A DNA stretch of 32,666 nucleotides from Hadesarchaea archaeon (lineage in GTDB: Archaea > Hadarchaeota > Hadarchaeia > Hadarchaeales > Hadarchaeaceae). The DNA is taken from contig JAUWBP010000002.1 in the NCBI GenBank assembly GCA_030601665.1, positions 1-32,666 on the forward strand. Reading direction: 5' to 3'. Numbering within the stretch: the stretch's first letter is position 1; each line of letters begins with the position of its first letter. This document shows, in pieces, positions 16,344 through 16,620 of this stretch. The notes under the pieces are model-generated. The model searched no databases, had not been told where the DNA came from, and worked only from the letters and a program-made list of their open reading frames with translations. Position numbers and translations under genes: made by a program.

Positions 16344-16469
16344 GGGCCGGTGGATCAGCCTGGAAATGAAGGGGAAACATCTCCTCGTCAACAGAATGAT
16401 CGTCCGCTTGGCAAATTATAATATCTAAATTGCGGGAGGTCGCGGGTTCGAATCCCGCCCGGTCCACCA
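16344..16469 (+). tRNA. tRNA-Ala(GGC) with a D-loop insertion and an anticodon-loop intron
   Basis: The acceptor GGGCCGG (16344-16350) pairs with CCGGTCC (16459-16465) and keeps the alanine identity pair G3-U70. The T-arm is GCGGG-TTCGAAT-CCCGC, and CCA is encoded (16467-16469). The anticodon stem TCCGC/GCGGG encloses TTGGCA, an inserted AATTATAATATCTAAAT (17 nt, 16414-16430) at the canonical 37/38 site, and T. The D-stem GATC/GATC (16353-16356, 16398-16401) is separated by 41 nt instead of about 9, so roughly 31-32 nt (about 16365-16396) are inserted in the D-loop. The insert folds into TGA-AGGGGA/TCTCCT-CG-TCA around an AACA loop. Removing both inserts leaves a normal tRNA of about 77 nt. 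Confidence 0.85.
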
Positions 16470-16515: not shown

Positions 16516-16620
16516 GGGCTCGTGGTCTAGTGGTTATGAGGGAGTTGGCGTAGCCGCACCCTAACAAACGTCGCCTTGACATGGCGAAGTTCCGGGGTTC
16601 GAATCCCCGCGGGCCCACCA
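16516..16620 (+). tRNA. tRNA-Val(GAC) with a D-arm intron
   Basis: The acceptor GGGCTCG (16516-16522) pairs with CGGGCCC (16610-16616). The T-arm is CGGGG-TTCGAAT-CCCCG and CCA is encoded. The anticodon arm TCGCC-TTGACAT-GGCGA (16571-16587) gives GAC and has no insert. The D-arm begins GTCT-AGTGGTTATGA and is interrupted before C25. Removing 29 nt (16540-16568, or equivalently 16539-16567) restores TATGACG and a 76-nt tRNA. The insert contains the potential helix GTTGG/CTAAC. An intron at about position 24/25 is non-canonical. Confidence 0.85.

Follow-up and report, generated by a model that had tools for sequence, protein, structure and literature searches.

A D-stem insert in a Hadarchaeota tRNA-Val(GAC) gene has the features of a non-canonical bulge-helix-bulge intron

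An interrupted tRNA-Val gene

What is the 29-nt insert that breaks the 3′ strand of the D stem in a tRNA-Val(GAC) gene of Hadarchaeota, and could it be spliced out? The gene lies at 16516-16620 (+) of the window, which is the whole 32,666-nt stretch of DNA analysed, contig C61 of the MAG G000 (881 kb, 80% complete, 111 contigs). An FtsZ gene adjoins it, with 73-98% identity to Hadesarchaea/Hadarchaeum MAGs, which places the organism in Hadarchaeota. The Rfam tRNA model matches the interrupted gene at 16516-16617 with 52 bits. ARAGORN in bacterial mode reports no tRNA in the window, and would thus miss tRNA-Val(GAC).

Read along the gene, the exon sequence GGGCTCGTGGTCTAGTGGTTATG is followed by the insert AGGGAGTTGGCGTAGCCGCACCCTAACAA and then by ACGTCGCC... 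of the second exon. Without the insert the gene reads GGGCTCG TG GTCT AGTGGTTA TGAC G TCGCC TTGACAT GGCGA AGTTC CGGGG TTCGAAT CCCCG CGGGCCC A CCA. Its anticodon loop, TTGACAT, is uninterrupted, so the 29-nt insert is not an intron of the canonical 37/38 type. An earlier note, made from the sequence alone, had described a 29-nt interruption of the D-stem 3′ strand without an anticodon-loop intron, whose removal restores a normal tRNA-Val. The sequence, the Rfam match and intronless relatives agree with this description, and the restored form exists as a gene in G007, G009, G010, G012 and G014. A group I or II self-splicing intron was ruled out by size (29 nt against the hundreds of nucleotides of a catalytic intron). 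This is the sole tRNA-Val(GAC) gene found in the sequenced 80% of G000, and it must therefore be usable. The parts of the gene are as follows.

16516-16538 (+): 5′ exon of tRNA-Val(GAC), tRNA positions 1-23 (Rfam match; intronless homologues)
16539-16567 (+): 29-nt insert AGGGAGTTGGCGTAGCCGCACCCTAACAA, probable intron at 23/24 (exactly absent in G009, G007, G010, G012 and G014; register favoured by G003)
16540-16568: the same intron in the alternative 24/25 register
16568-16620 (+): 3′ exon, tRNA positions 24-76, CCA encoded, no 37/38 intron (sequence; BLAST q24-76)

A predicted bulge-helix-bulge motif in the precursor

With a cut between positions 23 and 24, the precursor forms a 3-4-3 bulge-helix-bulge (BHB) motif. 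The exon sequence GUUA pairs with the intron sequence UAAC, and the 4-bp helix separates two 3-nt bulges at the junctions, UG^A and AA^A (^ marks the cut). The motif is flanked on the intron side by a GGG/CCC stem and on the other by a short, weak outer helix, whose three pairs include G-U pairs. The earlier note had pointed instead to a GTTGG/CTAAC pairing within the insert, which is not the splicing helix. The elements of the fold are listed below.

16533-16536 (+): GUUA, exon strand of the central 4-bp helix (fold; covariation)
16537-16539 (+): 5′ bulge UG^A, where the 5′ cut is predicted (BHB rule)
16540-16561 (+): intron hairpin, GGG/CCC closing stem and inner GGC/GCC (stem kept in relatives with other sequences)
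16562-16565 (+): UAAC, intron strand of the central 4-bp helix (fold; covariation)
16566-16568 (+): 3′ bulge AA^A, where the 3′ cut is predicted (BHB rule)

Among registers that give the same product, only 2 of 20,000 intron shuffles reached the observed BHB score (P about 1e-4); when nine registers were allowed, 0.0004 of shuffles did so. Covariation agrees with the fold. The model has ten pairs; across an alignment of 10 distinct sequences, 98% of their cells are paired and six have changed on both sides, with double changes in three pairs. Neither the covariation score nor the number of doubly changed cells was reached in 500 shuffles, counts that are not independent probabilities, as the sequences are related and three are isoacceptors of one genome. 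Slid registers, used as a control, pair in 26-46% of cells. The clearest case is in the central helix, where a U-A pair is replaced by C-G (GUUA/UAAC to GUCA/UGAC) in another family, with a U-G intermediate in G015.

The free precursor in G000 favours a competing fold over the BHB by about 6 kcal/mol. In this fold (16530-16558) the exon sequence GUGGUUAUG pairs with CGUAGCCGC of the intron. The competing helix is kept in G000, G008 and G013, the last of which has an intron identical to that of G000, and the BHB costs merely 0.3-1.8 kcal/mol in G002, G003 and G024. The helix could delay or regulate splicing, or it could be due to chance. We also considered whether the insert comprises two introns. 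In G000 and G008 such a parse scores near or above the one-intron parse, but solely by way of nested pieces of 9-20 nt, and we rejected it because relatives show one compact hairpin.

The most likely splice site

In G000 the insert starts with the same base, A, that stands at position 24, and cuts at 23/24 and 24/25 are therefore equivalent there. The homologous gene of G003 separates the two. It reads TATG^GGGGG...AACAA^ACGTC, with G as the first base of the insert, so that the U11-A24 pair is restored by a 23/24 cut and lost with a 24/25 cut. The splice site is thus most likely 23/24, with the predicted intron at 16539-16567. The earlier note placed the site just before C25, one base away. 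A real intron cut there, at 24/25, is compatible with the G000 sequence, yet we consider it very unlikely, as pairing by hand yields no 4-bp BHB helix in that register and the cut would leave G24 in G003.

Occupied and empty sites in Hadarchaeota

We compared tRNA-Val genes across Hadarchaeota, as the earlier note had proposed for close relatives. The 23/24 intron was identified in 9 of 27 genomes, with G011 left out of the count. Besides G000 these are G013, G008, G002, G003, G006, G015, G019 and G024. The site is empty in the other 18, among them five members of the same genus (G007, G009, G010, G012 and G014), and the gene is uninterrupted in most Hadarchaeota. The uninterrupted genes equal the G000 gene minus its insert, save for a few substitutions, so the absence is exact. 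G009, whose flanks are about 97% identical to those of G000, is the closest empty site.

The introns range from 16 to 31 nt and retain the BHB pairing. Relative to G000, the intron of G013 is identical, and that of G008 differs by 1 nt; G024 is a genome of another family. It carries the 23/24 intron in each of its three Val isoacceptors (GAC, CAC and TAC; L302, L303 and L158), and the Val(TAC) genes of G013 and G015 have it too. One locus of G015 (L289) combines a 23/24 intron with a 37/38 intron. One match each to the pattern GGTTATG-N12-40-TAACAAACG was found in 8 of 28 Hadarchaeota genomes, and none to its reversed control.

Proposed splicing

In combination, the fold and the distribution among relatives make it very probable that this insert, at the non-canonical position 23/24, is a genuine archaeal BHB tRNA intron, removed by the splicing endonuclease EndA and the ligase RtcB. 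In the precursor, GUUA of the D loop would pair with UAAC of the intron and leave the bulges UG^A and AA^A between the intron hairpin and the weak outer helix. Both bulges would be cut by EndA, for which a single-subunit, alpha4-type form is predicted in Hadarchaeota. RtcB would then join the exons, which would give back an intact D stem and a normal tRNA-Val(GAC).

Alternatively, the mature RNA might retain the insert, which is capable of folding by itself, and so have an enlarged D arm. Such an RNA would have a broken D stem, however, and the reading does not account for relatives that lack exactly the insert, nor for BHB pairing that is kept while the length varies between 16 and 31 nt; we regard it as extremely improbable. 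An assembly error or a pseudogene is equally hard to credit. The MAG is indeed a draft of 111 contigs, but the independent MAGs G013 and G008 carry an identical or nearly identical insert; the earlier note had also argued against an assembly error. The mature exons are intact, and no other Val(GAC) gene was found in G000.

Other tRNA introns of the genome

The earlier note had called for a comparison of all tRNA genes of the genome, in the belief that the lineage tolerates non-canonical introns. Our census is a lower bound, drawn from searches and from stretches around tRNA genes in draft genomes. We resolved 26 tRNA genes in G000, plus one degenerate tRNA-Ala-like sequence. Thirteen of the 26 hold about 19 introns, or about 0.7 per tRNA. 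Nine introns are non-canonical, and seven of these are in D arms (Glu, Ala, Val, Arg-CCG, Arg-GCG, Leu-GAG and Lys-CTT); tRNA-Thr-TGT and tRNA-Phe have introns at 30/31. Further D-arm introns occur in G013 and G024, so the expectation of a lineage with such introns holds. A full 4-bp central helix is present in 8 of the 9 non-canonical introns (shuffle P <=0.003, with only registers of identical product allowed). The Asn, Met and Pro(CGG) genes were divided into exons and introns by hand. Automatic two-intron splits of Asn, Met and some class II tRNAs were rejected as over-fits, and the hand reading gives a single 37/38 intron or none.

The neighbouring tRNA is also interrupted in its D arm, as the earlier note had stated.

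16344-16469 (+): tRNA-Ala(GGC) with two introns, at ~16366-16396 (D loop, relaxed motif) and 16414-16430 (37/38)

The D-loop intron of this gene has a shuffle P of 0.02, and the gene is missed both by ARAGORN and by the Rfam model. The degenerate sequence mentioned above (L024, G000:C84:6353-6422) resembles a tRNA-Ala(TGC) with a broken T arm and a mismatched acceptor.

Splicing enzymes and known systems

In a PF01974 search, 23 of 28 Hadarchaeota genomes had a single EndA gene and none had two. No match was found in the other five, which include G000, an 80% complete MAG. As a positive control, G030, G036 and G037 gave two matches in this search, which would therefore probably have detected a beta subunit as well. 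The Hadarchaeota EndA proteins are about 180 aa long and co-linear with the alpha4 enzyme of M. jannaschii (PDB 1A79), likewise a single subunit of ~180 aa, over query residues 17-180. A 9-residue insert of A. pernix EndA (3p1z), which we take to be the Crenarchaea-specific loop, is absent from the alignment, and none of 20 aligned Hadarchaeota sequences has an insert in that region. Thus, the enzyme appears to be alpha4-like, a predicted homotetramer encoded by a single gene, with neither a beta subunit nor the Crenarchaea-specific loop. An RtcB ligase is encoded in G000 (G000:C57, E 8.5e-181).

In reviews, euryarchaea with alpha4 or alpha2 enzymes are described as having a single BHB intron, in the canonical place (PMC4090602), in contrast to the many non-canonical introns of Hadarchaeota. 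Relaxed motifs are removed efficiently only by heterotetrameric and epsilon2 enzymes (PMC6379350), and loop-bearing EndA enzymes accompany diverse introns (PMC12397907). Exceptions to the link between enzyme and introns exist, because korarchaea and three euryarchaeal methanogens also have non-canonical introns (PMC3218864). The Val intron combines a standard motif with an unusual place, and a strict enzyme should accept it; the relaxed D-loop intron of tRNA-Ala is a harder test for an alpha4 EndA. Hadarchaeota may join a non-canonical intron load like that of Thermoproteales, with some motifs relaxed, to a plain, loop-less alpha4 EndA, a combination that we put forward tentatively and with some doubt. 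If true, it would be at odds with the rule that a heterotetrameric or loop-bearing enzyme is required for diverse introns. With a single-subunit endonuclease alongside rich introns, Hadarchaeota offer a direct test of the co-evolution proposed between enzyme type and intron diversity.

The closest likeness is to the non-canonical BHB introns of Thermoproteales and other Crenarchaeota, which are also short, lie in D arms and anticodon stems, occur several per gene and form a BHB at the junctions (PMC3218864, PMC4090602, PMC8450103). Those archaea belong to another phylum and, unlike Hadarchaeota, have a heterotetrameric EndA bearing the Crenarchaea-specific loop. Reported loads are 0.84 introns per tRNA in Thermoproteales and 0.21 for the archaeal mean (PMC8450103). 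Position 23/24 is absent from those named in PMC4090602 (20/21, 22/23, 25/26 and others, in a list that ends in "etc."). Outside Crenarchaeota, the Asgard lineages Atabeyarchaeia and Freyarchaeia share a high intron load and non-canonical positions, with 92-95% of tRNA genes interrupted, against about half in G000 (PMC11291895). We found no report linking Hadarchaeota to such introns in the open-access literature searched. The Val intron would place another phylum among the few archaea rich in non-canonical tRNA introns. Common tools overlook such genes, as ARAGORN did throughout the window and the Rfam model did for the neighbouring tRNA-Ala.

Turnover and origin of the intron

At the single Ala-Val locus, both the presence and the position of introns vary between close relatives. 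From the 3′ end of tRNA-Ala to beyond tRNA-Val, G009 and G000 align over 323 bases with 9 mismatches and 30 gap positions, and the gaps are essentially the 29-nt intron. Upstream of the Ala gene, identity is 92.5% over 1.3 kb. Where the G000 tRNA-Ala has two introns, that of G009 (L137, G009:C86) has a T-arm insert at ~53/54 by hand reading, and that of G013 a different intron again, at about 43/44. A similar T-arm insert was seen in a tRNA-Ala on the L037 contig, apparently the same as G002:C51. Around the Val gene of G013 (L148, G013:C85) the upstream spacer resembles those of G007, G008 and G010 and the downstream flank those of G000 and G009, a mosaic that suggests recombination inside the tRNA locus.

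On an AlaRS tree of 24 genomes the Val intron needs seven state changes, a count that does not distinguish gain from loss on a tree with several weakly supported inner branches. Gain or loss is precise, and recombination at the tRNA locus probably accounts for some of it. Families f1 and f3 use the same Val site, which points to an old site or to a hot spot with repeated gain or loss. The closely related genomes with and without the intron are natural pairs for the study of both processes.

The earlier note had suggested a recent invasion. We give a minority share of our belief to a recent invader spread by transposition, as opposed to an old intron with repeated loss. Positions do turn over between close relatives, both in presence of the Val intron and in the Ala genes of G000, G009 and G013; the G013 flanks look mosaic, and the GAC and TAC introns of G015 are similar. 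The site shared by f1 and f3, with sequences that are different yet co-varying, speaks against such an invader. The tRNA-Gly(GCC) gene of G000 offers an identical GGTTATG^AC exon target and has no intron there. Moreover, a looser pattern searched over 394 archaeal genomes matched no non-Val tRNA gene; its one further match, GTTATG...TAACAAAC in G052, reads as coding DNA and was rejected. A comparable case is the tRNA-Thr locus of Caldiarchaeum, whose intron content also differs between close relatives, although there a mobile element adjoins the tRNA (PMC3293823).
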